Assembly (NCBI GenBank): GCA_963576565.1
Contig: OY755047.1
Coordinates: 28,371,351 to 28,435,350, forward strand
DNA: 64,000 nucleotides
Reading direction: 5' to 3'
Source of the DNA: Aspidapion aeneum
Taxonomy: Eukaryota > Arthropoda > Insecta > Coleoptera > Brentidae
Made by a program: the position numbers and the translations under genes. The notes under the pieces were generated by a model, which ran no database searches, was not told where the DNA came from, and was given only the letters and a program-made list of their open reading frames with translations. This document shows, piece after piece, positions 5,405 to 42,542 of this stretch. How positions within the stretch are numbered: the first letter of the stretch is position 1; each line of letters starts with the position of its first letter.

Positions 5405-6075
5405 CACTAGGGGATCAAATAGACTCTTTAAATCCTGATGCAAAAATTTTGATAAATATCTCAAGGTCTGAGTATATAATTCGGAGTTTTTGACTTTTTT
5501 TAACAGAACAAATCTACTTACTGTAAAAAATTTACTAAGAGCAATGTATTACCAAGGTGAAAGAGTAAAAAGCTAAAAAAACACCTTTGACAATTTGAAA
5601 TAAAAAGAAACACTTTTACCTGTGTTTTAAATTTTAGGGATTAAAGTAACACTTTTCTATATCCAGAAAAAAATAATATAAAGTAGATTTCTTATCTTTA
5701 GGGAAAAATAATAAAAATCAAAACTACGGATATTACCAGCTGTAAATAAGTTATTGATTTCTAATATTATAAATCGATAAAAAAATTAATTCTGTAAAAA
5801 TAGAATGGCTGTCAAAGCTGTACCGGTAATATTTTACACTTATTTAAATTTTATAATTTTGGGTGCAAAAATTTTATAGGAAAATGTCTATAATATATTT
5901 ATTTTATTTTCAACAAAATCTGCACGCCCATGGTTTTTCATCGATTTCTCTTTTATACCTCTTACAGTGTTGCCTGCGAGGATTCGGCGAAATTTTCTGA
6001 GATTTCATGCATGATGAATGAATTTGCGTATTAAATAATGGGGATGCGTCTTCTAGGGTTCCTTGAATTTCTTTG

Positions 6076-6260
6076 AACTAAATACTTTAGTCGTGGTAAA
6101 GAATGAACAAAAACCGCCATTGCAATGGGCTGTTGGGCGAATTGTCGACGTACACCCTGGCTCAGACGGTCATATTCGTGTTGTGACCGTTAAAACAGCT
6201 ACAGGAACATATCGTCGACCAGTAGTTAAACTATGTCCTTTGCCTATGCCCGACGCATAA
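6076..6260 (+). pseudogene. BEL/Pao polyprotein C-terminus (left copy, downstream part)
   Basis: From the second AACTAAAT the frame reads LNTLVVVKNEQKPPLQ to the stop after PMPDA, identical in content to the end of the polyprotein at 15657. It is the severed tail of the gene at 1-738. The T-rich stretch 6261-6462 corresponds to the untranslated region before the LTR and ends in GGCGGCCGGAAAA, the likely polypurine-type boundary. Confidence 0.92.
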
Positions 6261-6462
6261 GGCAAAATTTTCTTTTCTTTCTTAATTTTTTCTAAGTATT
6301 TTTTCTTTTCTTTTAATTTTAATTTACATGCATTATCTAATGCATATTTGGGTTAATGTTAAATTGTATCGTTTAATTGCTAATAGGCGAATACTATTTA
6401 ATTTTTTTTTCCTTTCCTTTTCTTAACTAAGTAAAAACACACGTGTTTTGGCGGCCGGAAAA

Positions 6463-6875
6463 TGTTGGTGCAAGCAAGAAATTTCCTAATTTTCATTTTC
6501 TTTTCCTTTTCTGCGCGTTTAAAATAGTTTAAATTTTCGCGCTCTAAAATATGCATATGGGATTTCACGGCACCGGACACGTGGAAGACAAGCAGCGCCG
6601 CGATGAGTGCGCAAAGAACCACCGTCACAACAAGACACTAGCAAAATCACGTTCCCGAAAAAAGTGAATTTGAGGTGAAAAAACTGGACGTTTAAACGTC
6701 GACTGGAGCTGCAAGAGAGTCCGAGGTAGGTGCCTTTTCATATAAAATTCCATATGTATCGTAACTTTCCATTATCAATCGTCAATATCGACAATTAATT
6801 TTAAATGTGCTTGTGAAGCCAATACCGGCGACCTATCGAAGGAAATTCCGTTATTTTTCAGCCCTTGCACGCACA
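6463..6875 (+). repeat. BEL/Pao 3' LTR (left copy), 413 bp
   Basis: Starts TGTTGGTGCAAGC and ends GCACGCACA (TG...CA), the same length and sequence, in opposite orientation, as the LTRs at 15042-15454 and 21694-22106. It directly follows the untranslated tail of the left BEL copy. The 5' LTR of this copy is beyond the window, so its target duplication cannot be tested. Confidence 0.93.
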
Positions 6876-7081
6876 TATATTATTTAGACCACGTTACTCC
6901 ATTTACTCCTATGCTTTTTAAAAACTTTATATTGATTTTTCTCGGTTTTGATAAATCTGCAGTTACTTTGTTTTAATTTTTTAATATAAAATGGGCCACG
7001 AAACAGGTGCCTTGGTGTCAAGTCATTAAACATGCGTCGAATCTAGGGAAAATTTTGCACTATTATTAGCGAATCCGAGTG

Positions 7082-7684: not shown

Positions 7685-8036
7685 ACGGTATACTCGGCCA
7701 AAATAAAAAAAGTTTCCATAACACTCTCCTGTATTTAAGAAATGTGACTTTCAAAATTAGAGAACTGTAGAGAAAAGAGATTTATAAAAAAGAAAAATTG
7801 CCAGTTTTTAAAAAAATTATAAACAAAAAAGTTTTGAGGATCGACTTCTTTTGACCCATATTATATATGAACTTTTCTCTTATGTTGTCCTCTACACCCT
7901 GTATAAAAATTAGGTACTTAACACCCTAGAATACTGGATATTTTTTTGAAAAAAAAACAGCCAAAAACAAAAAAATGATTGAAAGAGATATGGCGAGGAC
8001 AAGGACAAGGGGAGGAATCAAAAGACCAAAAAAAAA

Positions 8037-8965
8037 GCTTGTGGGCGAGTCCTCAATAGGGGGATATTATGTCCTCGCAATATCCCTTCCAATTTTTTTT
8101 ATAACTCTGGGCTGAAGATATTTGCTGTGATCATATCTGGCCTCGTGGTGACGTGAAATTTTGCCTCAAACCTGAGGCTACCTTGACTGATGCTGCAAAT
8201 GAGCAGTTGGTCTGTTTTCAGTAAATGTTCAAGTTTCATATTTCCTCTTCAGACATCATCATCACCACTTATCGTCCCTTAATACTGGATACGCTCGTAC
8301 CGAAGTTCCCAACAAGGCCGAAACTCTTGGGGTAGCTATGCCGGATCTTGAACGATGTGATAGTTCCCATCACATGCTTTGGTGAATGACATGCTATGCT
8401 AAAAGACCTTCATTTCGCAAGCTTTTCCTACGATCCGACCGAGAAACGTTCACTCGGTACGGGGCAGGAGAGCAGATTTCACTTCAAACGCGTAAAATTC
8501 ACTAACTCTGAAGAGCGGGCGACTATGGTATTGGTCGAGATATGTGATTCCGCACAACACGCGACCGCTCAGAGTTTGCTATTGGTCAAAGCGTGTGATG
8601 TGCTAGCTACCCGGGCTAGCTATTTTAGGTCTTGAACGATGTGACCACATTACACGCTTTGACCAATAGCAAACTCTGAGCGGTCGCGCGTTGTTTAAAA
8701 TGACTTGTCTCGACCAATGGCATAGTCGCCCGCTCTTCAGAGTTAGCAAATTTTACGCGTTTGGAGTAAAATCTGTTCTCCTGCCCCGTTACGACTGAAT
8801 GTTTCTCAGTCGGATCGTAGAAGAAGCTTGCGCAATGGAGGTCTTTTCACATAGCACGTGACGGCTCGGAGCTTGCCATTGGCCAAAGCATGTTCAAGAC
8901 CCAAAATAGCTAAGCGGGTAGTATACGAGCTACTAATATCCCCTTATTGAGACCTTGCCCACAAA
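8037..8965. mobile_element. Inverted-repeat (foldback) element, copy 1
   Basis: The outer end GTGGGCGAGTCCTCAATAGG matches the reverse complement of 8935-8965 (GTGGGCAAGGTCTCAATAAG). Inside, 8397-8630 (AGACCTTCATTTCGCAAGCT, ATTGGTCAAAGCGTGTGATG) is repeated as reverse complement at 8640-8880. The element can fold into a stem of over 400 bp. Copies lie at 10187-10706 (partial) and 11984-12886. No protein-coding gene; short frames in it are by-products of the repeat. Confidence 0.78.
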
Positions 8966-9437
8966 AAAAATATTTTCAAAACAGATTTTAATAATGACTA
9001 AATAAATAAACACCGAGTTAAATACATATAATAAAAAACAACGGCGGCGAAGCCAGGAGGGGGCCCTCTCAAAAAAAATTGGTAGAAAAGCCATACAAGT
9101 CGTATTTTAAAATTTGGGTAGAAAAGGCGCGAACCTAATGTGATTTTGACGTTGATAAAAATCTACTTAGAATTCACTTGAAAATAACGTACAAACATTG
9201 CTATTTTGATTTGATAATCGCGTTATTATAATGCCGTTTTTAGCAACGTTGTTTTTTATAACGTTAATGAATGACCTATTAAGTTTGTTTTCATATATGA
9301 AATAAACGTTTTTTTCTAGCAGCTTTTAAAATCAACGTTTATTTTTCTCATGCGTTTTTTACGTGTTAAACACGTGATTGTGCTATATAAGCCCTTATGA
9401 AAAAAACTGGCGTCGCCACTATAAATAACATTAAAAT

Positions 9438-9553
9438 TTAGAAGCTAAACACTTTTCCAGCAAAAATAATTACGTCATTTGCCCTTATGGTATACAAAAA
9501 TGGATGGTTGGCAACAAAAATGGCTGCCACTTCATCGTCCATTAATAAGAATT
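9438..9553 (-). CDS. Serpin alternative last exon 11 (most distal)
   Basis: Minus-strand exon after acceptor tttttag (9554-9560). It begins with the two bases that complete the phase-1 codon left by exon 38336-38474 and reads EFLLMDDEVAAIF, then VANHPFLYTIR, VIIFAGKVFSF and stop. HPFLY and FAGK are the C-terminal serpin strands s4B/s5B. The loop before AIF has 13 residues, two fewer than the exons at 10938 and 14012, while the downstream part is nearly identical to them. A putative polyadenylation signal (AATAAA, minus strand) lies near 9333-9338. Counting from hinge Glu as P17 puts Asp near P1; this is inference. Splicing would bridge almost 29 kb, so use is unproven. Confidence 0.78.
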
Positions 9554-10186
9554 CTAAAAAATCTAAAAGATTATAAATTACTTCATTCATAGATTCACAA
9601 GACTGTATCCAGGGGGGATTAAGGGGGATCAATCCCCCCTCCGAAATAGTCGATAAAGTGTCTTAAAATTTTCCAGCAACACAAATAAGACAAACAAATT
9701 GCATAATACCCAAATTTTTTATAAAATTTTTTAATTCCCCCCGCTGAAATTTTTTCCTGGTTCAAAATATGTAACTTTATTACAAATAAAACCAATTTTT
9801 TTAAAAACACAAACCAGAGTAATGTAACGCTGTTGCCGTATTTGATCATTTTGGGAGACACCATTTGACGTGCGCTGAGGGACAAGGAGGAATTATATAA
9901 TTATCCTACTTGGGTCGAATGAGCGGATGTCTCTTTCATTATATTTTGATACACGATTTTACAAAATTTTATATTTTTAGTCCGTTTTTAACGAAATTAT
10001 AACCAAAAAGTTAACAAAATTGTCAGTTTTTATGCTCTCGACAACAAAAAAGTTTTGACTCATATGTTATATGAACTTTTTTCTTATGTAGGCTCCCTAC
10101 AGCCAGTATAAAAATAAGGTACTTAACACCCTAGAATTTTAAGTCTAAAAATATTTTCAATTTAATGATACTGGATATTTTTGATG

Positions 10187-10706
10187 GGCAGGAGCACAGA
10201 TTTCACTTCAAACGAGTAAAGTTCACTTACTGTGAAGAGCGGGCGACTAAGTCATTTCGCACAATACATGACTCAGAATTTGCTATAGGTCAAAGCGTGT
10301 GATGTGCTAGCTACTTGGGGTAGCTATTCTGGGTCTTGATCGATGTGACCATCCACATCACACGTTTTGACCAATAGCAGACTCTGAGCGGCCGCGTGTT
10401 TTTCAAAATGACTTGTCTCGACCAATGACATAGTCGCTCGCTCTTCAGAGTTAGTGAATTTTACGCGTTTGAAGTGAAATCTGTTATTCTGCCCTGTACC
10501 GACTGAACGTTTCTCGGTCGGATCGTAGGAGAAGCTTGCACAATGGAGGTCTTTTCGCATAGCACGTGAAGGCTCGGAGCTAATTTAAACCTTGCCATTG
10601 GCCAAAGTATGTGATGGGAGCTATCACATCGGTTAAGACCCAGGATAGCTATACCCGGGTAGTATACGAGCTACAAATATCTCCCTATTGAGGACTCGCC
10701 CACAAG
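10187..10706. mobile_element. Inverted-repeat element, copy 2 (truncated)
   Basis: Shares GGGCAGGAGCACAGATTTCA, the Lys/Arg-rich shadow frame and the GAGCGGGCGACTA words with the element at 8037-8965. Both arms are shorter; the outer left arm with GTGGGCGAGTCC is missing. The right end still carries TATCTCCCTATTGAGGACTC. Confidence 0.7.
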
Positions 10707-10937
10707 AAAATGATTTTCAAAACAGATTTTAATAACGACTTAATAATTAAACACCGAGTTAAATATATATAATAAAAAACAAATGGCGGCGACGCCAGGG
10801 GGGTCCTAAAATTTGGATAGTCCCCCTTAAATCAAGCCGAATTGTCCTACTTTTTAAAAAGTGTCAAAACAACCCCTTCCCGTTTTTTTCTTGTCTTGGA
10901 AAAACCCTGGCGTCGCCACTATAAATAAGACTAAAAT

Positions 10938-11059
10938 TTATAAGCTAAACACTTTTCCAGCAAAAATAATTACGTCATTTGCCCTTATGGTATACAAAAA
11001 GGGATGGTTGGCAACAAAAATGGCTGTCACCTTATGTAACATCATCAGTGTTATCCTAG
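10938..11059 (-). CDS. Serpin alternative last exon 10
   Basis: Acceptor ttttttag lies just above 11059. Two bases complete the split codon, then the exon reads ARITLMMLHKVTAIF, VANHPFLYTIR, VIIFAGKVFSL and stop: 40 codons including stop. The C-terminal part differs from the exon at 14012 by only two or three bases, but the first 27 bases (bait loop) share nothing recognisable with it. With hinge Glu as P17, Met falls near P1, which would suit a chymotrypsin-like target (inference). Phase, acceptor and open frame are intact; it sits inside tandem unit 2. Confidence 0.82.
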
Positions 11060-11181
11060 CTAAAAAATTAAAAATTACTTACATATACATTCATAGGTTC
11101 ACAAGGCCGTACCCAGGGGGGGGATAACGGGGATCTTCAGCCCCCCCTACTACCGAAATAGTCAATAAAGTGTATTAAAAT

Positions 11182-11350
11182 CAGTGGCGCACCCAGGAAT
11201 GTCTTGGGGGGGGGCCTTTGGGGGGGGACGAAGCCTCATGATGTCGAATTTTAAGCTATTTTTTCTGTTTTTTTCATAAAATATGTGGAAAATGTGTAAA
11301 CAAATCTAAGGCTTTGGGGGGGCCCGGGCTCCCCCGTCGGTGCGCCCATG
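11182..11350. mobile_element. G-rich MITE, 169 bp, with TTAAAAT duplication
   Basis: Ends CAGTGGCGCACC and (reverse complement of right end) CATGGGCGCACC; flanked by TTAAAAT at 11175-11181 and 11351-11357. The interior is G-rich at one end and C-rich at the other. A second copy is at 49013-49182. The 7-8 bp duplication and CA-G-G termini suggest a hAT-type non-autonomous element. Confidence 0.75.
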
Positions 11351-11983
11351 TTAAAATAGATGTTTCAGCAACACAAATAACACAGCCAAATTGCATAATA
11401 CTCAAATTTTTATTAAAATTTTTTAACTCCCTTCCGCTAAAATTTTTTCCTGGGTACGGCCGTGGTTCAAATTCTGTAACTTTTTTACAAATAAAACCAA
11501 ATTTTTTAAAAAGACAAGCCGGGGTAATGTAACGCTGTTGCTGTATTTGATCATTTTGGGAGACACCATTTGAAGTGCGCTGAGGGACAAGGAGAAATTA
11601 TATAATTATCCTATTTGGGTCGAAAGAACGGATGTCTCTTTCATTTTATTTTGATACACCATTTTACAAAATTTTATATTTTTAGTCCGTTTTTAAATAA
11701 ATTATAACCAAAAAGTTTAAAAAATTGTCAGTTTTTATACTCTCCACAACAAAAGAGTTTTGACCCATATGTTATATGAACTTTTTTCTTATGTGGGCTT
11801 CCTCTACACCCTGTATAAAAATTAGGTACTAAACACCCTAGAATTTTAAGTCAACTGGACACGAGATACGAAACGATACTGGATATTTTTGATGTTTGAA
11901 TAAAAAGCCAAAAATAAAAAAATGATTGAAGGATATTGCGAGGACAAGGACAAGGGGAGGAGTCAAAAGACCAAAAAAAAAAG

Positions 11984-12886
11984 TTTGTGGGCGAGTCCTC
12001 AATAGGGGGATATTATGTCCTCGCAATATCCCTTTCAATTTTTTTTATAACTCTGGGCTGGAGATATTTGCTGAGTGATTATATCTGGCCTCTTAGTGAC
12101 GTTAAATTTTGCCTCAAACCCAAGGCTACCTTGATGACTGATGGCAGTTGGTCTGTTTTCAGTAAATGTTCACGTTTCATATATCCTTTTCAGACACCAT
12201 CATCACCATTCATCGTCCCTTAATACTGGTTACGCTCGTACGGAATAGTGCCAACAAGGCCGAAACTCCAGGGGTAGATATTCTGAGTCTTGAACGATGT
12301 GATATGGTTCCCATCACATGCAAGCTTTAAATTAGCTCCGAGTCGTCACGTGTTATGCGAAAAGAACTCCATTGCGCAAGCTTCTCCTATGATCCGAACG
12401 AGAAACGTTCAGTCGGTACGGGGCAGGAGAACAGATTTCACTTCAAACGAGTAAAATTCACTAGTCGAGACAAGTCATTTCGCACAACAAACGACCGCTC
12501 AGAGTTTGCTATTGGTCAAAGCGTGTGATGTACCTAGCTATACTACTAGCTACCCGGGCTAGCTATTCTGAGTCTTGAACGATGTGACCATCTACATCAC
12601 ACGCTTTGATCAATAGCAAACTGAGAGCGGTCGCGTGTTGTGCGAAATGACTCTCGACCAATGGCATAGTCGCCCGTTCTTCAGAGTTAGTGAATTTTAC
12701 GCGTTTCAATCTGTTCTCCTGCCCCGTGCAATGGAGGTCTTTTCGCATAGCACGTGACGACTCGGAGCTTGCCATTGGTCAAAGCATGTGATGGGAACTA
12801 TCACATCGTTCAAGACCCAGAATAGCTAACCGGCGTAGTATACGAGCTACTAATATCCCCCTATTGAGGACTTGTCCACAAAAAAA
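11984..12886. mobile_element. Inverted-repeat element, copy 3
   Basis: Left end GTGGGCGAGTCCTCAATAGG; the right end near 12858-12885 is its near-exact inverse (CCTATTGAGGACTTGTCCAC). Both arms carry the TTGGTCAAAGC and GAGCGGTCG words seen at 8037-8965. Small internal deletions distinguish it from copy 1. Confidence 0.77.
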
Positions 12887-12942
12887 AAATGATTTGCGAA
12901 ACAGATTTTAATAATGACTAAATAATTAAACACCGGCCACGC

Positions 12943-13850
12943 CAGTGGCAGTATTCTTGAAATCTCCCCGAGTGAGTACTCCCCGGGGAGTGACAACGAG
13001 TGAGAACTCCCTCGCTTTGGGGAATACATGAAAAGTGATATGAAATGAGCGCACTGTTGCCAATTTTCAGATGACAGCACGTGACAATTTTGACCAATAA
13101 AAAACAAAAAATTTTGACAGACAATTAACCAAATACAGTTATGTGTTGAAGGGATGTAACCCCAATTTTTATTTCCTTGATTTTTTGTTTGTGGACATGG
13201 ATGGACAAAAAATGAGTTATATTAAATTTGCCCCAAGATTTTTTATTTAGTTTTTATTTAAATATGACTTATTTTTTCTTAAATAATAGCTCTGTCCTTA
13301 TGTTATGAGATCAAAATTTGTGTTAAATCTAACCGCGTTCAATTGAGCAAACATATCCTAACCGATGTGTCCACCACCAGCATTTTGCAAAAAAAATGTC
13401 CCCACAAAAAAAGTTGTTCTTCAAAAAAAAATGCTTTTTCAAAAAACTAATTTATAAAAAAAAAAACTAAAAATTTGTTTTAATAATAATTTTTCAAAAA
13501 GCAGTTTTTAAAAAATATATTTAGCCCAAAAAGATTTAATGGTGGAGTTTATCAAGGAAAAGCCTATAATGGAGGCCAAAAAATATACTTCAACATTTAC
13601 AAAACAAACAGGGAAGAAACTTAAAAAAAAAACCCACACGTAACCAAAACAACATTTTCTAGGTTATCTCAGAGTTTTTGACAAAAGTCACCACGTCGGC
13701 ACATATCGAGATCTCCCCGGTGAAAAGTCTCCAAAATGTCACACGTTTTTCGGGTGAGAATTTCAAGAATACGATTGGGGGAGAAACGCCCACTTTCGCT
13801 CGAATTTCGAGGAGTACTCGCTCGGGGAGATTTCAAGAATAACAACACTG
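12943..13850. mobile_element. 908-bp element with 40-bp terminal inverted repeats
   Basis: Left end CAGTGGCAGTATTCTTGAAA then TCTCCCCGAGTGAGTACTCC; right end reverse-complemented reads CAGTGTTGTTATTCTTGAAA then TCTCCCCGAGCGAGTACTCC. The insertion splits tandem unit 3, whose uninterrupted counterpart is seen near 9050 and 10790. No clear target duplication and no coding region recognised. Confidence 0.8.
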
Positions 13851-14011
13851 AAGGGGGCTTTCCCCAAAAATTTGAGTAGTCCTCCTTAAATCAAGCCGAA
13901 TTGTCATACTTTTTAAGGGGTGTCAAAAGTACCCCCTCCAATTTTTTTCTTGCCCTATGTAGCCCCCTTATGGAAAAACCCTGGCGTCGCCACTATAAAT
14001 AAGATTAAAAT

Positions 14012-14133
14012 TTAGAAGCTAAACACTTTTCCAGTAAAAATAATTACGTCATTTGCCCTTATGGTATACAAAAAGGGATGGTTGGCAACAAAAATGGCTG
14101 TCACCTCCTCGTACATGCATTTTTCCATAATAA
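14012..14133 (-). CDS. Serpin alternative last exon 9
   Basis: Follows acceptor tttttag at 14134-14140. After the split codon it reads VIMEKCMYEEVTAIF, VANHPFLYTIR, VIIFTGKVFSF and stop, 40 codons in all. The only change in the conserved tail is Ala to Thr in FAGK. Its loop is unrelated to that of the exons at 10938 and 9438 although intron flanks and tail match closely. By the P17 count Cys would be near P1 (CM), recalling the naming of Anopheles SRPN10 loops, but this is inference. The intact BEL element (15042-22106) lies between it and the preceding last exon at 27706. Confidence 0.82.
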
Positions 14134-14280
14134 CTAAAAAATTAGAAATTACTTACATACACATTCATGTTTGAAAGACCGTATCTAGAGGAGATTAGGA
14201 GGGAGCACCCCCCCCCCAGAAAGTCGATAAAGTGTATTAAAATAGACGTTTCAGCAACACAAATAAGACAAACAAGTCCC

Positions 14281-15041: not shown

Positions 15042-15454
15042 TGTGCGTGCAATGGCTGAAAATTAACGGAATTTCCTTCGATACGTCGCCGGTATTGGCT
15101 TCACAAGCACATTTAAAAATAATTGTCGGTATTGACGATTGAAAATGGAAAGTTACGATACATATGGAATTTTATATGAAAAGGAACCTACCTCGGACTC
15201 TCTTGCAGCTCCAGTCGACGTTTAAACGTCCAGTTTTTTCACCTCAAATTCACTTTTTTCGGGAACGTGATTTTGCTAGTGTCTTGTTGTGACGGTGGTT
15301 CTTTGCGCACTCATCGCGGCGCTGCTTGTCTTCCACGTGTCCGGTGCCGTGAAACCCCATATGCATATTTTAGAGCGCGAAAATTTAAACTATTTTAAAC
15401 GCGCAGAAAAGGAAAAGAAAATGAAAATTAGGAAATTTCTTGCTTGCACCAACA
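15042..15454 (-). repeat. BEL/Pao 3' LTR
   Basis: 413 bp, identical in length to 21694-22106 and 6463-6875. It follows the C-rich/G-rich boundary GGCCGGAAAA (minus strand) near 15455. Visible differences from the 5' LTR include the bases at the AATGG/AAGGG, ATACG/ATAGG, AAGGAACC/AAGGCACC and TCTTTG/TCTGTG sites. Confidence 0.93.
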
Positions 15455-15656
15455 TTTTCCGGCCGCCAAAACACGTGTGTTTTTACTTAGTTAAGAAAAG
15501 GAAAGGAAAAAAAATTAAATAGTATTCGCCTATTAGCTATTAAACGATACAATTTAACATTAACCCAAATATGCATTAAATTATGCATGTAAATTAAAAT
15601 TAAAAGAAAAGAAAAAATACTTAGAAAAAATTAAGAAAGAAAAAGAAAATTTTGCC

Positions 15657-18600
15657 TTATGCGTCGGGCATAGGCAAAGGACATAGTTTCACTACTGGTC
15701 GACGATATGTTCCTGTAGCTGTTTTAACGGTCACAACACGAATATGACCGTCTGAGCCAGGGTGTACGTCGACAATTCGCCCAACAGCCCATTGCAATGG
15801 CGGTTTTTGTTCATTCTTTACCACGACTAAAGTATTTAGTTTAATATTGTTAGAAGCCTCTGTCCATTTAGAACGCTGTTGCAAGGTGTTTAGGTACTCC
15901 AAGTTCCAGCGTTTCCAAAAATCGGACTGGAGCCTTTGCACCAGCTGCCAGCGGGACAGGGTGTTCAACTTGGAATCAGAAAAATCGGGCTCTGGTACGG
16001 AATTCAACGGTTCCAGGGTAAGAAAATGACCAGGGGTCAGTGGAAGAAAGTCATTCGGATCCATACTTTGGGCATACAGAGGCCGGCTGTTTAGTATGGA
16101 TTCGACCTGACACAAAAAAGTAAAAAACTCTTCATAGGTTAACCGTTGCTCACCTATTACACGTTTTAAATTTGCCTTGGTGGATTTAACTCCTGCCTTA
16201 GCTAGTCCGTTTAGGTGCGGACTACCAGGACTTGAAAAATGCCAGGTAATTTTTAGACTGTGACATGCTTCCTGGGAGTACTGTTTGAGTAAACGATCAG
16301 CTCCCAAGAACGCGCTACCACAATCTGAGTAAATGTCAGAGATTCTTCCTCTTCTTGCCACAAATCTCTTAAAAGCCGCAAGAAAGGTAGGGGTGGAAAT
16401 ATCGGAGGTAAGTTCTAGGTGAACTGCCTTTGTTGCGGAGCAGACTAAGACAAGAATATAACCTTTGGATACCTTTGCACCTCGGTACTTTCCCCTTGTA
16501 ATTGGAAAGGGACCACAATAATCTATGGCAACATGTGAAAATGCCTTTACTTGAGAGATGCGTTGAGCAGGCAAGTTGCCCATGATTTGTACGGAAGGTT
16601 TAGGATTTAATCGATAGCATAAAATGCAATGAGAAGTTATACTCTCGATTGCATAGCGAGGGGAAAGGATCCAAAATTGTTGTCTCAAGAGGTAATGCAA
16701 CGTTTTTTGACCAGGATGACAGTACCTTTTGTGAGTGTACTCAATGACAAGTTGAGTAAGACGGTGAGAACGTGGTAAAAGTAAAGGGTGTTTTGCTGAA
16801 TAAGAGAGTTCGGAAGAATGTGGTAATCGACCCCCCACTCTTAAGCAGCCTTGTGTATCTAGAAACAGTGAAAGTTTACGAAATTGTTTAGGAAGTAGCT
16901 TTGCGTCATTCAAACGTGAAATGAGATCAGCAAAGATGGAACGTTGAACATGCCGAACGAGAACAATAAGAGAATGTTGAAGTTCTACTTCGGTAATATT
17001 TTCGTTAGGATATTTAGATTTCTTTTCGGTAAGGCGAAAAATATAGGAAATTATGCGTTGAATTTTCTCTAGGGAAGAGTAACGAGAAAGAAAAGTATCA
17101 AGCATGTGTGGTTCAACTGTGCATGTTTGAAATACTGATTTTCGTTCTTCCAGAATAACCTCGTTTTCCGGAGGGTCTGGACAGCGAAAATCATCAGGCC
17201 AGCACTCTTTTGGTAGCCTAAGAAAACAAGGACCTTCCCAATACAAGTCATGTTTGACAAGTTGATTAGGCATAAGACCGCGCGAAGCACAGTCGGCTGG
17301 ATTTAGCGCTGATGGAATATATTTCCAGGCCGTAGGAGAAATGGTTTCTTCAATGTGACAGATACGGTTTGCCACAAACGTTTTAAACCTGTGAGGTGAA
17401 GCCGCCAACCAGCATAGAACCACTTGGGAATCACACCATGCACAGATTTGGTTGAAGTTAAGAATATCTGAATAAGTGTTTCGAATAAAGGAAATTAGGT
17501 CGCAAAGTAAAGTGGCACCAAGAAGCTCCAGTCGCGGAAGACTGACTGTTTTCACTGGTGCGACCTTAGATTTGGCCATTACAAGAAAGGTATGGATTTC
17601 TCCGGATACTGACTCCATTCTGAAATAGACCGTAGCCGCGTAACCTATCATAGAGGCGTCTGAAAAGCCGTGAAGTTCAATGCTACGTGGTTGATCAATG
17701 GAAAGGCGTCTAGGTAAATGAATATTTGAAAGATTTGGAAGTTCGGTTCGAAATTGATTCCAAACATTTACGATATGCGGAGGAGGCTGAGAATCCCAGT
17801 CCAGCTTCTCCTTCCACAGATCTTGCATGAGATGCTTAGCAAGTAAAGAAACGGGAGAACAGAAACCTAAGGGATCAAAAATTTTCATGATTTGAGATAA
17901 GATACCTCGCTTGGTGCATGGTTTATCTTCTGGTACGACCAAGTAGGTAAACGAATCTGAGATAGGATTCCATTGGAGACCTAATATTTTTACAAAATTA
18001 GGTTCGGATTTGTCGAAACGAATGGACATTTGTGTTTCTGATTCTGAGAATGAGGAGAGAAGTTCCGGACTGTTGCTTGCCCATTTTTTAAGTTCAAACC
18101 CTCCTAGGCGCAACAGGGAGATTAACTCCGACTGAAGTTCTTTGGCAGAGGCCACAGAATCCTGCCCAGTGAGCACGTCGTCGACGTAAATGTCTTTAAG
18201 AAGCACCTTGGAAGCATTAGGATACCTTTCAGACTCAAGTTTAGCTAGTTCTTGTATAGTACGAATAGCTAAGTAAGGTGATGACTTAAGTCCATAAACA
18301 ACTGTTCTTAAGGAGTAGGTTTGGACAGGATCATCCTCAGAAAATCTCCATAGAATATTTTGATAACGCGTGTGCTCAGGAATAATTAAAATCTGTCGGA
18401 ACATTTTTACTATGTCAGTAACAAAGGCTACAGCATGAATTCGAAAATTAAGTAAAATTTCACGGACATCATTTTGCAGTTTAGGACCTGCGCACAACGT
18501 CTCGTTGAGTGAGACACCTCTGGGACTACGTTGAGACCCATCAAAGACCACTCTTATCTTCCCAGTGTTCCAGACACTGTGATGAGGGATAAAGTAGGAA

Positions 18601-20934
18601 TTATCCAAGACATCTTTAGATATAGGCGTAGGAATAGGTATCATGTGACCAGTGTCTAAATAATCTTGCATAAAATCTTTGTAAGCTTGATAATTAGCTG
18701 AGTCTTTGAGAAGTCTAGCTTCCTGAAGCTTGAAACGTTTTAAAGCGATTGGATAGGTGTCACCCAACTGGGGTTCTAAGTTTATGAAAGGTAATGGAAC
18801 GACGAATCTACCTGATTCGTTGCGTGAAACTGATTGTGAAAATAATTTTTCGCACATAATATCCTCAGGACTGTGATGAACCTTATGTGGAACCTGCTCT
18901 ATCTCCCAGAAGCGCTCTAGGCAGATATCCAGAGATGGTTCGATGGAAGTGTAACAGCTTATGAGTGATTGTGGATTTTGTTGCTTTGAAGTTTCAACTT
19001 TACCAATCAGCACATAGCCAAAGATGCTATTAAAAGCACTAGGTTGTCCACGCTCTCCGTGGATAACTCCCTCTTGTAAGAGATGCGGAAAAAGTTCACA
19101 ACCTACTAGGACATCAATGGAACTTGGTATGTGGAAGTTTTGATCAGAAAGTTTGATATTGCGAATGTGATTCCACTTGCTCGAGTCGACAGCGCAAGAA
19201 GGAATCTCTGTACAAAGTTTTGGAAGTACTAAAGCCTCAAAATCAAAGGTAGGTCCCGCTTGACCTTGAGGTTTGATAAGACATTTCGTCTTACCTTTGG
19301 TATTGGAAGATGTCATTTGATTTAAGCCTTGAATAGAAGTAGAAAAGAAGCTTTTCGAAAGACCTAAACGATTTAGACATTTTTCTGAAATAAAGTTTGC
19401 CTCTGAGGCAGAATCGAGTAAGATACGAACTGGTTGGTAATGTCCCCTTGAGTCTAACATGTCAGCTACAACGGTAGAAAGTAGAAAAGTGGAATTTTTG
19501 GAAATCATTGTCGCATGACAGTTTGTGGAATGGCTTCCTGACATAGGGGTGCTATTGGAATTGGAAAGTGGAATATTAACGTTCTCTGGAGGATAAGAAT
19601 TAACACTCACAGAGGGCGCTACTGGTTGTGGAACGTGAAGAAGACTGTGGTGCCTAGCTCCACACGTAAAGCAGTTGTAGGAGGAGGGGCAATTCACGGT
19701 CTGGTGAGCAAAATGTAAGCAATTTTGACATAGATTCACCTGCCGAACATAACCCGTCCTTTCCTGTGGACTTTTGTTTTGAAATTCGATACATTTCGAT
19801 AATGCGTGATTCGAAGAACATAGGTAACATTTTATTTTTGGATTAAAAGTTCTGTTCTGATTATTTTGTATTTGAGGGTTGCTGCGTTGATTGCTATTTT
19901 GTAAAGTATTTTGTTGATTTCTTGAATTTGAACTTTGATTTGAAATAGTTGTATTGAAAGCAGAAGGTGAATTAGAATTATTAAAACTGTTTCTCTGAAA
20001 ACTGTTCTGTTGAGAATTACGCGTAGTTTGAGGTTGTCTAGGGTTTTGATTTTGCCTACTAAAACTGGGCATTTGCACTACAGATTCGAGCGCAACGCAA
20101 TGATTTTCTATAAACGTGTAAAGATCAGTGTAGGACGGAATTTCTGAATTGTTTTTCTCTCTACTATAGTAAAGTTCGAAATCAGTCCTCATCTTGACTT
20201 CAAGTTTTGAGAGCATCATGTTAAAAGTAAGAAAGTCCCATTCTTTTGTAGGAAAACCAAGCTCATTTAAGATGGCTAGATTCTCAGAAAATGTATCCAA
20301 CATGGAACGTAATTCTTTCCCAGAACTGGATTTAGTTGAAAGAAAGTTAATAGCATTCAAAGCGGTAGTAGCAATAATTCGTTTATTTTGATACCTCTTT
20401 ACTAAGGTTTCATACGCAATGTGATAATTGCTATCTGCGAGGGGAATGGTTTTTACTAGAGAAAGGGCTTCATTCAGAACAGAACTCCGCAATTGTTGAA
20501 ATTTCTCTATATCACTTAAATCAGAATTTTGATGTACCATGACTTTAAATAAGTCAAACCAGTGTTGCCAGCTTTTATAATTACCATCGAATATTGGCAA
20601 CCTTGGTTGTAGAAATGATCTTGTAATTGACAGGGTTGGCCCTAAAAAGGTCGTAGTAAATACCCTTACACTCATAATAAAGGTTGTCAAAGTCTTTTCT
20701 AGTTTTATCCTGCTCGTCAAATGAAAGTTTAAACTCTTCGAGAGAGCCAATAATTTGGTTATGAAAATTATAGAATTGAGCATGACATTCTTCGACGTCT
20801 TCATATCTGGATTTAAACAAAAAGTGAAACGCTGTATCCGACTTCGCTTTCAAAGCTACCTCGTGAGCTTCCGCCATTTGGTTGAAGCTCAAAAGCCTTT
20901 TGTCGCAAAGTTTTTTCTGTTTTTGCGTAGACAT
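15657..20934 (-). CDS. BEL/Pao gag-pol polyprotein, frameshifted, integrase Glu changed
   Basis: The natural start is probably ATG at 20934 (MSTQKQKKLCDKRLL). That frame runs to about 20600, where the matching gag text moves to the frame that is open from 20804 to 15657 (1715 codons), so one single-base indel lies near 20600-20660. In the long frame come a gag domain (LPIFDGNYKSWQHWFDLF), an Asn/Gln-rich stretch, CxxC zinc knuckles (CYLCSS, CQNCLHFAH, CFTCGARHH), an aspartic protease motif (LLDSASEANFIS), RT with YVDDVL (residue about 871), RNase H, and integrase with an HHCC finger, AIDYCGPF, SDCGSAF and GLAKAGVKS. In BEL integrases the last motif has Glu; here codon 16197-16199 is Lys (residue 1536), while the left copy keeps Glu. 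Gag forms particles; pol copies RNA to DNA and integrates it. Confidence 0.92.
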
Positions 20935-21125
20935 TTTTGTTTTTGAAAGTTAATTTGTTTTTAAAATTACCCAAAAAAATGCTTAAAATATAGCTTAAAA
21001 TATAACCCGAATTTTAGCAAAAATTAAACAATTTTATTATTTTAATTTTATTAACTTTTTTCGAAAATTTTGAAATGAAATGTTTGTAAGTTTGTCTGTA
21101 TGTTATTATTTGAACATATCCCTTA

Positions 21126-21215
21126 AAAAAAAAACTTTTATGTCTCACCAAGGATTGAACCCCGCACCTTTCGATTCCAAGTCGCACACTCTGTGCATAC
21201 GACTAGCGTTCCCGT
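21126..21215 (-). ncRNA. tRNA-like (SINE-like) segment in BEL leader
   Basis: On the minus strand the sequence reads GTGTGCGACTTGGAATCGAA then AGGTGCGGGGTTCAATCCTT, with a good B box (GGTTCAATCC), a plausible anticodon stem-loop, and a T-run of ten at the 3' side (21129-21138), as a Pol III terminator would be. The acceptor stem does not close, so it is not a functional tRNA. It lies in the untranslated leader between the 5' LTR and gag. Confidence 0.4.
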
Positions 21216-21670
21216 CTGAAAGTTTCTAAAAACCGACGGTATTCGAAGAAACAACGCGCGCAACGTGAGACCTTGGTGACGGCGACACTTGCACCTGCGC
21301 GTTAACGCGACACCTGTACAATCGACAATTAAAGGAATTTAGATGGAAGAACCGCCTTAAATTTTCACATTCGGCGTATTGACGCCACTTTTACTGAAAA
21401 TGTAATGAACAAAGCGATCAACTTTCTTTGATGAACTAGTAAACTATACGAAATATGTGCATTGGCTCTAGCTATTTTTGAACGGTAATAAACACTTCGA
21501 TCAACTTTGAAGGAACATATCCCCAAAAGGTCGTAAAACAATATGGTCTGTTTCAAATTGAAATTGAAATAAATTTGGAAATTTGAAATTTTGAAATAGA
21601 AAATAGAAATTTGGAATTTTTGTAGGAAATTGCTGAACCACAGGAGTCTAGGTAGTTTGGAAAACTATTA

Positions 21671-21688
21671 ATTTGGGTCGAAGGGCCA
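21671..21688 (-). other. Candidate primer binding site of BEL element
   Basis: On the minus strand, five bases after the 5' LTR end, the sequence TGGCCCTTCGACCC begins with the TGG expected to pair with a tRNA CCA end. The tRNA species was not identified. Confidence 0.45.
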
Positions 21689-21693
21689 TTAAA

Positions 21694-22106
21694 TGTGCGT
21701 GCAAGGGCTGAAAATTAACGGAATTTCCTTCGATAGGTCGCCGGTATTGGCTTCACAAGCACATTTAAAAATAATTGTCGGTATTGACGATTGAAAATGG
21801 AAAGTTACGATACATATGGAATTTTATATGAAAAGGCACCTACCTCGGACTCTCTTGCAGCTCCAGTCGACGTTTAAACGTCCAGTTTTTTCACCTCAAA
21901 TTCACTTTTTTCGGGAACGTGATTTTGCTAGTGTCTTGTTGTGACGGTGGTTCTGTGCGCACTCATCGCGGCGCTGCTTGTCTTCCACGTGTCCGGTGCC
22001 GTGAAACCCCATATGCATATTTTAGAGCGCGAAAATTTAAACTATTTTAAACGCGCAGAAAAGGAAAAGAAAATGAAAATTAGGAAATTTCTTGCTTGCA
22101 CCAACA
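21694..22106 (-). repeat. BEL/Pao 5' LTR
   Basis: 413 bp, TG...CA in element orientation, flanked on its outer side by GTACC (22107-22111), which pairs with GTACC at 15037-15041. It would carry the element promoter; no TATA box was assigned. Confidence 0.93.
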
Positions 22107-27705: not shown

Positions 27706-27851
27706 TTAGTTTCCCGAAATTAAGGCTTCATCATTGGAAATTTTCCCAGCGAACAGCATCACTTCATTCAACTTGGCAAAAAAGAAAAATGGATGATCGG
27801 CTTTGAACGCAAAATCGGCTGGTGGGGGAAGCGAGTCAAACGTTGCGTGAA
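27706..27851 (-). CDS. Serpin alternative last exon 7
   Basis: Acceptor aatag at 27852-27856; the exon completes the split codon and reads VHATFDSLPPPADFAF, KADHPFFFFAKL, VMLFAGKISNDEALISGN, stop: 48 codons. ADHPF and FAGK place it in the serpin C-terminus. SLPPP after the bait matches the exon at 32553. Counting hinge Glu as P17 places Asp at P1 and Ser at P1', unusual for an inhibitor of trypsin-like enzymes and reminiscent of Asp-specific proteases (inference only). AATAAA-type signals lie near 27625 on the minus strand. The C-terminal extension is longer than in sister exons. Confidence 0.87.
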
Positions 27852-32224: not shown

Positions 32225-32361
32225 TTATTTTGAACTATCAAAATTATCACACCTTCCAATAAAAATTATAAAATTTGTATACTTTAAGAAATATAAAAAT
32301 TGATGATCCGCAGTGAAATTGATGTCGGTTGGAAGGGGGATCCAATCATTTCTCGAAATCG
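32225..32361 (-). CDS. Serpin alternative last exon 6
   Basis: Acceptor ttttttag at 32362-32369. The exon reads AISRNDWIPLPTDINF, TADHQFLYFLKY, FIIFIGRCDNFDSSK, stop, 45 codons. ADHQF replaces the usual ADHPF and IGR replaces AGK, both conservative for the family. By the P17 count Asp (ND-W) is near P1, with Asn as the alternative. AATAAAG overlaps the stop codon, so the 3' UTR may be very short. Its splice phase matches the shared exon. First of a tight cluster of three last exons (32225-32934), each separated by less than 200 bp. Confidence 0.86.
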
Positions 32362-32552: not shown

Positions 32553-32686
32553 TTAAGAAAATTGGTTACATTTTCCAGCAAACAAAATAATATGTCTATT
32601 ATTGTCTTTGATATAATAGAAAAAAGGATGGTCAGCAACAAAATTAGCCGTTGCCGGTGGGGGAAGGCTCACTGGACGAAAGGTTA
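32553..32686 (-). CDS. Serpin alternative last exon 5
   Basis: Acceptor tttttag at 32687-32693. Reads VTFRPVSLPPPATANF, VADHPFFYYIKD, HIILFAGKCNQFS, stop, 44 codons. ADHPF and FAGK are canonical. By P17 counting Val is P1 and Ser P1', suggesting an elastase-like target (inference). The SLPPP segment after the bait is shared with the exon at 27706, indicating those two cassettes are sisters. An AATAAA-type signal lies about 13 bp after the stop (near 32540). Confidence 0.87.
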
Positions 32687-32806: not shown

Positions 32807-32934
32807 TTAAAAGTTTGAGATTTTTCCAACAAGGCACACAACATTCCTAGTTTTAATAAAATAGATGAAGGGATGGTCCGCCTTAAAGTGGCATTTACGA
32901 GTGAAGATAACGCCAAATTTGTCCGTCCATTGTA
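32807..32934 (-). CDS. Serpin alternative last exon 4
   Basis: Acceptor ttttcag at 32935-32941. Reads VQWTDKFGVIFTRKCHF, KADHPFIYFIKT, VVCLVGKISNF, stop, 42 codons. ADHPF is canonical; VGK replaces AGK. By P17 counting Lys is P1 and Phe P1', suiting a trypsin-like target (inference). The frame was read from DNA, since it lacks a Met start of its own as expected for a last exon. It is the most 5' of the 32.2-32.9 kb cluster. Confidence 0.84.
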
Positions 32935-34375: not shown

Positions 34376-34503
34376 TTATTTGGCGTGTCTTCCATTGAAG
34401 ATAAGCATATCATTAGATTTGATGAGAAAGATGAACTGATGATCGGCATGAAAAATGATTGGTGATGTGACCTTCGGAACTCCCCTTCGTTTTGTGACTG
34501 TCA
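34376..34503 (-). CDS. Serpin alternative last exon 3 (duplicate of exon 2)
   Basis: Acceptor ttttag just above 34503. Reads VTVTKRRGVPKVTSPIIF, HADHQFIFLIKS, MLIFNGRHAK, stop, 42 codons. It is the tandem copy of 35683-35810, with the same bait loop and one visible change, ADHQF for ADHPF. By P17 counting the P2-P1-P1' are Lys-Arg-Arg, a dibasic bait. NGRHAK replaces the usual AGKV ending. Frame, phase and acceptor intact. Confidence 0.86.
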
Positions 34504-35682: not shown

Positions 35683-35810
35683 TTATTTGGCGTGTCTTCC
35701 ATTGAAGATAAGCATATCATTAGATTTGATGAGAAAGATGAACGGATGATCGGCATGAAAAATGATTGGTGATGTGACCTTCGGAACTCCCCTTCGTTTT
35801 GTGACGGTCA
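35683..35810 (-). CDS. Serpin alternative last exon 2 (dibasic bait)
   Basis: Acceptor ctgttttag at 35811-35819 then VTVTKRRGVPKVTSPIIF, HADHPFIFLIKS, MLIFNGRHAK and stop. With hinge Glu as P17 the reactive bond falls at KR-R. A dibasic bait suits trypsin-like or proprotein-convertase-like enzymes; Drosophila Spn42Da (Spn4A) is a known furin inhibitor made by the same exon-switching design, but its RRKR motif and ER-retention tail are not seen here. Intact frame and phase. Confidence 0.88.
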
Positions 35811-37048: not shown

Positions 37049-37182
37049 TCACTGGTAAACTCGGCCTGCGAAAAGCACGTTATTCGAAGTTCTTTCTTTT
37101 ATGATGTACATAAAGGGGTGGTCTGCCCTGAACTGTTTTGATGGTTCCAAGAACACGGGAGCGCTTAGGAACACTAGGCTAA
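37049..37182 (-). CDS. Serpin alternative last exon 1 (most proximal)
   Basis: Acceptor aatgtag at 37183-37189. After the split codon it reads VSLVFLSAPVFLEPSKQF, RADHPFMYIIKE, VLFAGRVYQ, stop, 44 codons. ADHPF and FAGR are canonical. By P17 counting Leu is P1 and Ser P1' (VFL-SAP), typical for a chymotrypsin- or elastase-directed serpin (inference). Being only 1.15 kb from the shared exon at 38336, it is the default candidate for splicing; use of the distal cassettes needs skipping of this one. Confidence 0.9.
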
Positions 37183-38335: not shown

Positions 38336-38474
38336 CACCAGTGGCAGCAGCAGCTTCAGTTCCGTGTTCGGTAACGTTAATAAAAGCTTTCTGAATGACG
38401 TTATCGACGTAGAGGGGAGTGTCAGAAATTCCTTTGAAATTGGCATCAGAGCTAAACGCTTTTTGTAAACCAAG
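38336..38474 (-). CDS. Serpin shared exon 8: hinge of reactive loop
   Basis: Between acceptor ctttatag and donor gtaag. Reads [43 protein letters not shown] plus one base. This covers helix I, strand s5A and the hinge, with Gly-Thr-Glu-Ala-Ala at P15-P11 as in inhibitory serpins, where small residues let the cleaved loop insert into sheet A. The exon stops at P7, so everything specifying the protease target comes from the chosen last exon. Ending in phase 1, it is compatible with all ten last exons. The intact hinge says the protein is an inhibitor, not a storage-type relative. Confidence 0.95.
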
Positions 38475-38848: not shown

Positions 38849-39021
38849 CCTTTGCAAAATAGGCTTCAATTTTATATCGCTCTCAACTACGAATTTAGGT
38901 AGGGTCACAGCTACCCTTTCATATTGCAAAGGTTGGTCCTGTAAAAGACCTTCGATATCCTGCTCTATAGCTGCTAAGCCATTCATTTCCTTGGGCAAAA
39001 CGATGGTCATTGAGATGTTTC
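38849..39021 (-). CDS. Serpin shared exon 7
   Basis: Acceptor atattttag, donor gtaagt. Reads GNISMTIVLPKEMNGLAAIE then QYERVAVTLPKFVVESDIKL and KPILQR, 57 codons plus a shared Gly. SMTIVLPKE and VTLPKF are the serpin s3C/s1B-s2B and s6A consensus positions. It begins in phase 1 and ends in phase 0, joining LGLQKAF of the next exon without a split codon. Confidence 0.93.
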
Positions 39022-39417: not shown

Positions 39418-39582
39418 CTCCCAAATAGGGCAACTCCAAATACTGAACGTTACGCTTGTTGCACTCATAGTATTTGAAGTTTTCTTCCAAGTGCATCATG
39501 TCAACTTCTTTCTTGTTTGATTCGCTGGTATGGAACAGTTCCTTGCGGGTCGCCCAGTTTTCGAATTCGTGCACCCATTTAC
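39418..39582 (-). CDS. Serpin shared exon 6
   Basis: Acceptor tatttag, donor gtaag. Reads GKWVHEFENWATRKELFHTS, KEVDMMHLEENFKYYE, NVQYLELPYLG plus one base. KW...F, VDMMH and VQYLELPY are the conserved s4C/s3A/s2B positions around the breach and shutter. Both ends are phase 1. Length of 165 bp gives 54 full codons. Confidence 0.94.
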
Positions 39583-40009: not shown

Positions 40010-40153
40010 CACTGAAGTATAGAGCATTGACCAAGACTAATTTGGTGTTGGAATCCAGTGAGGATGAATCGATTAAGTTGCGAATTTTGTTGTTGGTATG
40101 ACTCTCGACCCATTTGTTAATGATATCAGCGGCTTGTTGAGTTTGGGAGAAGT
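40010..40153 (-). CDS. Serpin shared exon 5
   Basis: Acceptor tttttag, donor gtaagt. Reads [48 protein letters not shown] plus one base. INKWVE, KI-NLI and VNALYF match helix F, the strand after it and s3A (NAIYF in most serpins). The split codon with the next exon restores SGKW. Confidence 0.95.
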
Positions 40154-40278: not shown

Positions 40279-40435
40279 TAATATTTTCAGCATCCGCATC
40301 ATAAACTTGAGTTGCAATTTTTTTAAAGTCCTCCAAAATTGTAAAATTTTCACCCAGGAATAATTTGTTGGCTGACAAGAGTTTTAAATCGTCAGTGGTG
40401 TGCTTTAGCGTTGGCAGGAACTTTCTAATGGCTTC
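40279..40435 (-). CDS. Serpin shared exon 4
   Basis: Acceptor attgtag, donor gtaagt. Reads EAIRKFLPTLKHTTDDLKLL then SANKLFLGENFTILEDFKKI, ATQVYDADAENI plus one base. SANKLFLGENF is the helix D to s2A consensus (ANALFV), followed by helix E/s1A. Phase 0 at the start, phase 1 at the end. Confidence 0.94.
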
Positions 40436-42392: not shown

Positions 42393-42542
42393 CTGAGTCT
42401 TTTGCTGGTCAGCAGGAAGGCTTAAAGCGGTGGAAAACTCTTGAGCTGTCGGTCCTTTGGCGCCTGCTTGTGTCAAGGCTAAGATGATCTCGATGGACAA
42501 AGGACTGACGATAAAATTGCCGGGAAAATCTTTCAAAATTTC
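42393..42542 (-). CDS. Serpin shared exon 3
   Basis: Acceptor ttttttcag at 42543-42551, donor gtgagg below 42393. Reads EILKDFPGNFIVSPLSIEII, LALTQAGAKGPTAQEFSTAL, SLPADQQKTQ, exactly 50 codons with phase 0 at both ends. GNFIVSPLSI is the near-universal serpin s6B/helix B motif and GAKGPTAQE the helix C motif. A transposable element ends about 28 bp upstream of the acceptor, which constrains where the branch point can be. Confidence 0.95.

Follow-up and report, generated by a model that had tools for sequence, protein, structure and literature searches.

Alternative terminal exons that swap the reactive-centre loop and the C-terminus of the protein, with a splice point directly after the hinge and an origin by exon duplication, are described for insect serpins in the available parts of two studies (PMC10513286, PMC2375007), and the same arrangement is seen at the locus considered here. 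This locus is an array of terminal cassette exons in a 64,000-nucleotide stretch of Aspidapion aeneum (Coleoptera: Brentidae; contig OY755047.1, positions 28,371,351 to 28,435,350), referred to below as the window, in which we compared three related cassettes, U14 (14012..14133), U10 (10938..11059) and U9 (9438..9562). According to the portion of PMC10513286 at hand, nonsynonymous divergence (dN) is raised in insect serpin alternative exons, a property shared with the loops of this array, and between Pteromalus and Nasonia these exons have higher dN and lower synonymous divergence (dS) than the constitutive ones. What sets the array apart from the known insect cassettes is that divergence confined to the loop can be followed at the level of single bases against the gene's own intron, in three copies and with a younger pair as control.

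The murine Spi-2 and alpha1-proteinase inhibitor genes reportedly, to go by the titles of the studies concerned, form duplicates with a hypervariable reactive site. In vertebrate SERPINA the loop is a hotspot of positive selection, and in SERPINA tandem arrays the reactive site of duplicates changes fast, as it does here (PMC12646145, in the part available). All of these are duplicates of whole genes, whereas the present locus has exon cassettes. A further parallel is ASSET in snake venom families, in which short exon segments become unrelated sequence while the introns stay similar; in the accessible text the mechanism is given as not understood, and the authors consider an accumulation of point mutations unlikely (PMC2711939). 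Set against ASSET, in which a segment turns into unrelated sequence between otherwise similar exons, the array gives a mixed picture, the U10 loop being near chance level and the U14 and U9 loops homologous. It is unlike ASSET in that two of the three loops (U14 and U9) still align, and that for the third no donor was found in the genome at up to three mismatches.

Divergence of tail, loop and intron

The initial annotation proposed three in-frame cassette exons in this part of the window, and alignment and acceptor phase confirm that they are real (14133-14012, 11059-10938 and 9562-9438 on the minus strand). Each consists of a tail of 93 bases, from a valine codon to the stop (14104-14012, 11030-10938 and 9530-9438 in U14, U10 and U9), and a loop, of which 29 bases are compared (14105-14133, VIMEKCMYEE; 11031-11059, ARITLMMLHK; 9531-9562, DFLEFLLMDDE). 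The U9 loop had been read as EFLLMDDEV, which comes from an acceptor at 9553; the acceptor that aligns with those of the other units is at 9562 and gives DFLEFLLMDDEV. The two possible U9 acceptors are nine bases apart and in the same frame, and would yield two loop lengths from one exon. Splicing and expression of U14, U10 and U9 are predicted from their sequence.

Differences in the tail are few: 2/93 between U14 and U10, 3/93 between U14 and U9 and 3/93 between U10 and U9. In the loop 17/29 bases differ between U14 and U10, 11/29 and one 3-bp indel between U14 and U9, and 17/29 and the same indel between U10 and U9, or 19/29 in the last pair when an automatic alignment places another gap. 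For the same pairs in the same order, the last 45 intron bases show 9/45, 12/40 and 3/38 differences, which partly reflect gap placement, and the first 36 bases after the stop show 1, 3 and 4. The distal upstream intron differs at 22/65 sites between U14 and U10, these sites lying in a stretch of G/C runs, at 13/88 between U14 and U9 and at 50/490 between U10 and U9; the downstream flank of U14 and U10 differs at 14/93. With a divergence of 10-15% the flanks were treated as neutral. An early description, in which the ANHPF-to-stop part and the intron flanks were both shared with only a few base changes, thus holds for the tail and fails for the intron, and at 10-15% flank divergence the exons are not freshly duplicated.

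The excess of loop over distal intron is strong for U10-U9 (Fisher P 1.5e-11, computed with 19/29 against 50/490) and moderate for U14-U9 (P 0.0099, against 13/88) and U14-U10 (P 0.022, against 22/65). When U10 and U9 are compared in windows of 29 columns, the loop is the single worst window, with 17 differences where the next has 10. The view that the loops bear no resemblance to one another survives in part, in that the U10 loop is near chance level when set against U14 (shuffle P 0.08-0.11, window-null 0.05) or U9 (P 0.46-0.73). Those of U14 and U9 are alike beyond chance, with 18/29 aligned bases in agreement (shuffle P 0.0015-0.04 according to gap costs, window-null P 0.0019); on this alignment the two are homologous, which argues for gradual change. 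Eight of the 29 loop columns are the same in all three units, 10 are private to U10, 4 to U9 and 4 to U14, and 3 differ in all, so that U10 is the outlier and the most changed of the three loops.

Nonsynonymous changes in the loop lie above the neutral flank in every pair (U14-U10, 16/25, P 3e-8; U14-U9, 9/26, P 0.01; U10-U9, 13/25, P 2e-7). In the tail they lie below it, at 2/69 in each pair (P 0.001, 0.001 and 0.02 in the same order). After correction, the loops are 6.8, 3.2 and 10.4 times as distant as the flanks, respectively. Diversifying selection, one of the two processes initially suggested, is supported by these contrasts. A comparison of dN/dS for loop and tail contributes the nonsynonymous excess in the loop, whereas the ratio is indecisive: the loop has only about 5 synonymous sites, which makes dN/dS unreliable as a single number, and over these sites there are 0-1 changes for U14-U10, at least 1 for U14-U9 and a high count for U10-U9.

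A similar trend is seen in other species. The homologue set consisted of the best 120 of 4100 hits, of which 106 were split into core, loop and tail and 14 were dropped. Tails are at least 75% identical in 21 pairs of public homologues; 19 of these pairs have a loop that is less similar than the tail and 17 a loop less similar than the core, mean identities being 0.89 for the tail, 0.52 for the loop and 0.76 for the core; the pairs are a mixture of orthologues and paralogues and indicate a trend rather than exon duplication itself. Searching with residues 300-349 of the U14 isoform returned no homologue at E 1 or better (1 candidate), and a search with the end of a Euwallacea similis protein matched only that protein (27 candidates).

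Explanations for the loop divergence

We consider it probable, at roughly 0.72, that the array reflects tandem exon duplication, constraint on the tail and diversifying selection that acts episodically on the reactive-centre loop. One cassette, within some 2 kb of sequence, would have been copied in tandem to give three units. The tail, which has to match the fold of a serpin, would then have been held by purifying selection while the intron drifted in each unit, and the 10-11 codons of the loop in contact with the target protease would have changed again and again under diversifying selection, with U10 affected most. The mutational route was presumably point substitution and one 3-bp indel.

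Several observations weigh against selection of this kind as the whole explanation. Cassettes c35 and c34 form a younger duplication, with 20/735 differences (2.7%) in the downstream flank and 30/278 in the upstream flank, the latter including badly aligned indel stretches. Their loops differ at 1/53 bases, a synonymous change, so that there is no loop acceleration, and change of the loop after duplication is therefore not automatic. Their tails differ at 1/75, where HPF has become HQF in c34; in an otherwise conserved motif this is perhaps an early step of decay. Secondly, the base-by-base comparison of loop with intron, which singles out the loop in U10-U9, does not do so in either U14 comparison, where the loop is surpassed in divergence by an intron patch of G/C runs at about 14161-14214 (13 versus 11 against U9 and 19 versus 17 against U10). 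The U10 counterpart of this patch is the edge of an inverted-repeat element, and our guess is that slippage or misalignment is involved. Thirdly, the change in the U10 loop is a large jump. From flank distances of about 10, 15 and 15%, taken over different stretches, the neutral U10 branch comes to about 5%, an estimate for which three sequences require no root, so that about 1.5 private loop changes are expected neutrally against the 10 found (Poisson P 3.6e-6; P 0.001 if the entire U10-U9 distance is assigned to U10). Fourthly, the U10-U9 loops show at least 2-3 synonymous changes in the roughly 5 sites where about 0.5 are expected; this tells mildly against selection on amino acids alone and leaves room for a mutational component. 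Lastly, within 600 bp past the stop, AATAAA is present behind U9 only, U10 and U14 having the variant ATTAAA.

The loops might instead be old and distinct, with gene conversion having later homogenised the tails and near flanks and spared the loop because selection keeps the loops distinct. Gene conversion between tandem copies is ordinary, and the tail (2-3/93) does lie below the distal intron in all three pairs, those of U10 and U14 included (P 4e-8, 0.006 and 0.018), with just 0-1 synonymous changes in about 21 sites. The exon surroundings of U14-U10 are also less diverged than the distal sites (12/174 versus 22/65, P 7e-7), these 65 sites being the G/C-run patch. However, purifying selection accounts for the scarcity of nonsynonymous changes in the tail, conversion tracts would have to stop near both edges of a 29-bp loop, and for U10-U9 (10/167, P 0.066) and U14-U9 (18/169, P 0.22) the surroundings are not significantly below the distal intron, so that conversion is not needed. 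We rejected it as the main cause on the strength of these last two pairs, and hold the explanation to be unlikely.

It is also doubtful that the loop, at least of U10, was altered in one step, by replacement of the segment or by a local burst of mutation, whether ASSET-like or through a short template switch. The U10 loop is hardly distinguishable from unrelated sequence, ten changes are private to it, and synonymous change is high in U10-U9; moreover, about 130 bp from the U14 loop there is an inverted match of 11 bases (P 0.034, uncorrected, against 2000 random places). This match is not significant after correction for three loops, the U14 and U9 loops still align, and the frame is kept with a length shift of no more than 3 bases. 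Within the window, the longest exact matches of the loops elsewhere (11, 9 and 14 bases) are ordinary in comparison with 300 random 29-mers (median 12), and a donor there was rejected. The 1.29-Gb genome of the species yielded no second copy of the U10 loop at up to three mismatches, and a DNA search of the same genome with the U10 unit gave U10, U14 and U9 (3 candidates, 3 scored, counts being lower bounds) and no fourth copy of the exon. Replacement from a donor is thus unsupported, and the targeted process initially suggested for the loop segment finds no backing in these searches, in the homology of the U14 and U9 loops or in the c35/c34 pair.

Hypermutation specific to the loop and acting on all cassette exons is very improbable. 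Aligned divergence does start at the acceptor and stop at the valine codon, but with 20/735 in the c35/c34 flank a ten-fold acceleration would have produced about 14 loop changes and a three-fold one about 4, where there is one, and the loops of c37 and c28 are like those of Rhynchophorus and Cylas proteins. That the three units are dead or unspliced copies, with loops that differ by drift and misalignment, is scarcely credible: the repeat content is heavy and the distribution of AATAAA would fit, but all three frames are open, the acceptors are present and tail nonsynonymous changes are below neutral.

The gene, its cassettes and their surroundings

By its domain and homology the minus-strand gene is an insect-type serpin, with six recognised constitutive exons and ten terminal cassettes. 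Splice sites of the constitutive exons were called by eye and the gene model starts from the recognised exons, the 5'-most being 42393..42542 (EILKDFPGN...QQKTQ), which has a Serpin profile match at G000:C10:28413683-28413895. It is followed by 40279..40435, aligned with Serpin48 and lacking a profile match of its own, and by 40010..40153, 39418..39582, 38849..39021 and 38336..38474, each with a Serpin profile match, so that the genome search recovered five of the six. Once joined, the exons from 42542 to 38336 form a single open frame up to the hinge GTEAAAATG and a phase-1 donor. This hinge motif, of inhibitory type, stands directly before the splice point (donor gtaagt at 38336). A Pfam PF00079 match confirms that the serpin core domain is present; PDB 3ozq (Serpin48) matches the joined protein with E 3.8e-82, and the core with U14 as its last exon has 63% identity with an antichymotrypsin-2-like isoform from the weevil Cylas formicarius and 60% with an isoform from Sitophilus oryzae. 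Elsewhere in the genome (G000) serpin matches lie at C4:85.94-85.97 Mb, C4:103.43-103.44 Mb and C2:80.69-80.74 Mb, and some matches outside the gene have a stop within the matched frame.

A profile built from eight cassette ends in the window and the C-termini of homologues recovers the eight and adds another two, giving ten terminal cassettes downstream of the serpin core on the same strand. All ten encode a loop, a C-terminus and a stop, and have at least one AG acceptor in the phase that fits the donor, the listing being restricted to that phase. Besides the three units they are c37 (37049..37182, VSLVFLSAP..., also found by the genome serpin search and with a second possible acceptor at 37173), c35 (35683..35810), its twin and recent duplicate c34 (34376..34503), c32a (32807..32934), c32b (32553..32686), c32c (32225..32361) and c28 (27706..27851). 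The loop part FDSLPPP of c28 resembles, over FDSLP, that of a Cylas formicarius protein, and the c37 loop resembles that of a Rhynchophorus protein over VSLVFLSAP; thus, among the seven cassettes besides the three units, at least these two show that some loops in the gene are conserved. Beyond the window, 20 kb to the left (best E 0.32) and 10 kb to the right contained no cassette above background.

In a self comparison the neighbouring U9 and U10 units (9399..11894) have in common the exon plus about 0.8-1 kb (9399-10186 and 10899-11894), and U14 has less sequence than this in common with them. Over exon and near flanks, gaps included, identity of the U10 unit is 90% with U14 and 83% with U9, values which leave the sister pair undecided. 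An inverted-repeat element at 11102-11464, with 16-nt ends that are 94% complementary, begins 43 bp upstream of the U10 acceptor; U9 and U14 have similar sequence at the corresponding position, and its G/C-run edges are fast-changing. Long imperfect palindromic repeats, similar to one another, lie between or beside the cassette units (8389-8859, 10186-10494 and 12272-12831) and may have helped unequal exchange. The block 7849-9015 resembles 11758-12935 (77.7%) and has no recognisable cassette adjoining it; it is perhaps a fourth unit after exon loss. A long terminal repeat (LTR) retrotransposon, putatively of Bel/Pao type, lies at 15042-22106 between U14 and c28; its two LTRs have 99.0% identity over 413 bp, GTACC stands on either side, and there is a single long open frame (15660-20849). 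Pieces of a second retrotransposon copy in opposite orientation are found at 1-738 and 6073-6884.

Meaning of the array

The structure of the gene, the homology of the exons, the divergence profile and the identity of the most changed copy can be read directly from the window. Inhibitory activity, the residues that meet the target and any change of target are suggested by the hinge and by homology. The cassettes would be mutually exclusive 3'-terminal exons that encode the reactive-centre loop together with the C-terminal strands, and every loop might direct its isoform at a different protease. The array is clearly a new instance of a type of evolution already known, the mechanism itself not being new. 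Its value is that of a natural experiment at base level, with three cassettes in one gene, the gene's own intron as a neutral yardstick and a younger pair as control, and it indicates that loop change here is strong and episodic and not automatic. In relatives it could also bear on whether such loops change by stepwise selection or by replacement in one step, a question left open by the authors of the segment-switch study in its available text (PMC2711939). There is a slight chance that a local mutational process, such as a burst of multi-nucleotide change or a template-switch repair spanning about 29 bp, rewrote the U10 loop in one or a few events, and that selection then retained the result. 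Were this so, serpin cassettes could acquire a new target specificity in a single leap.

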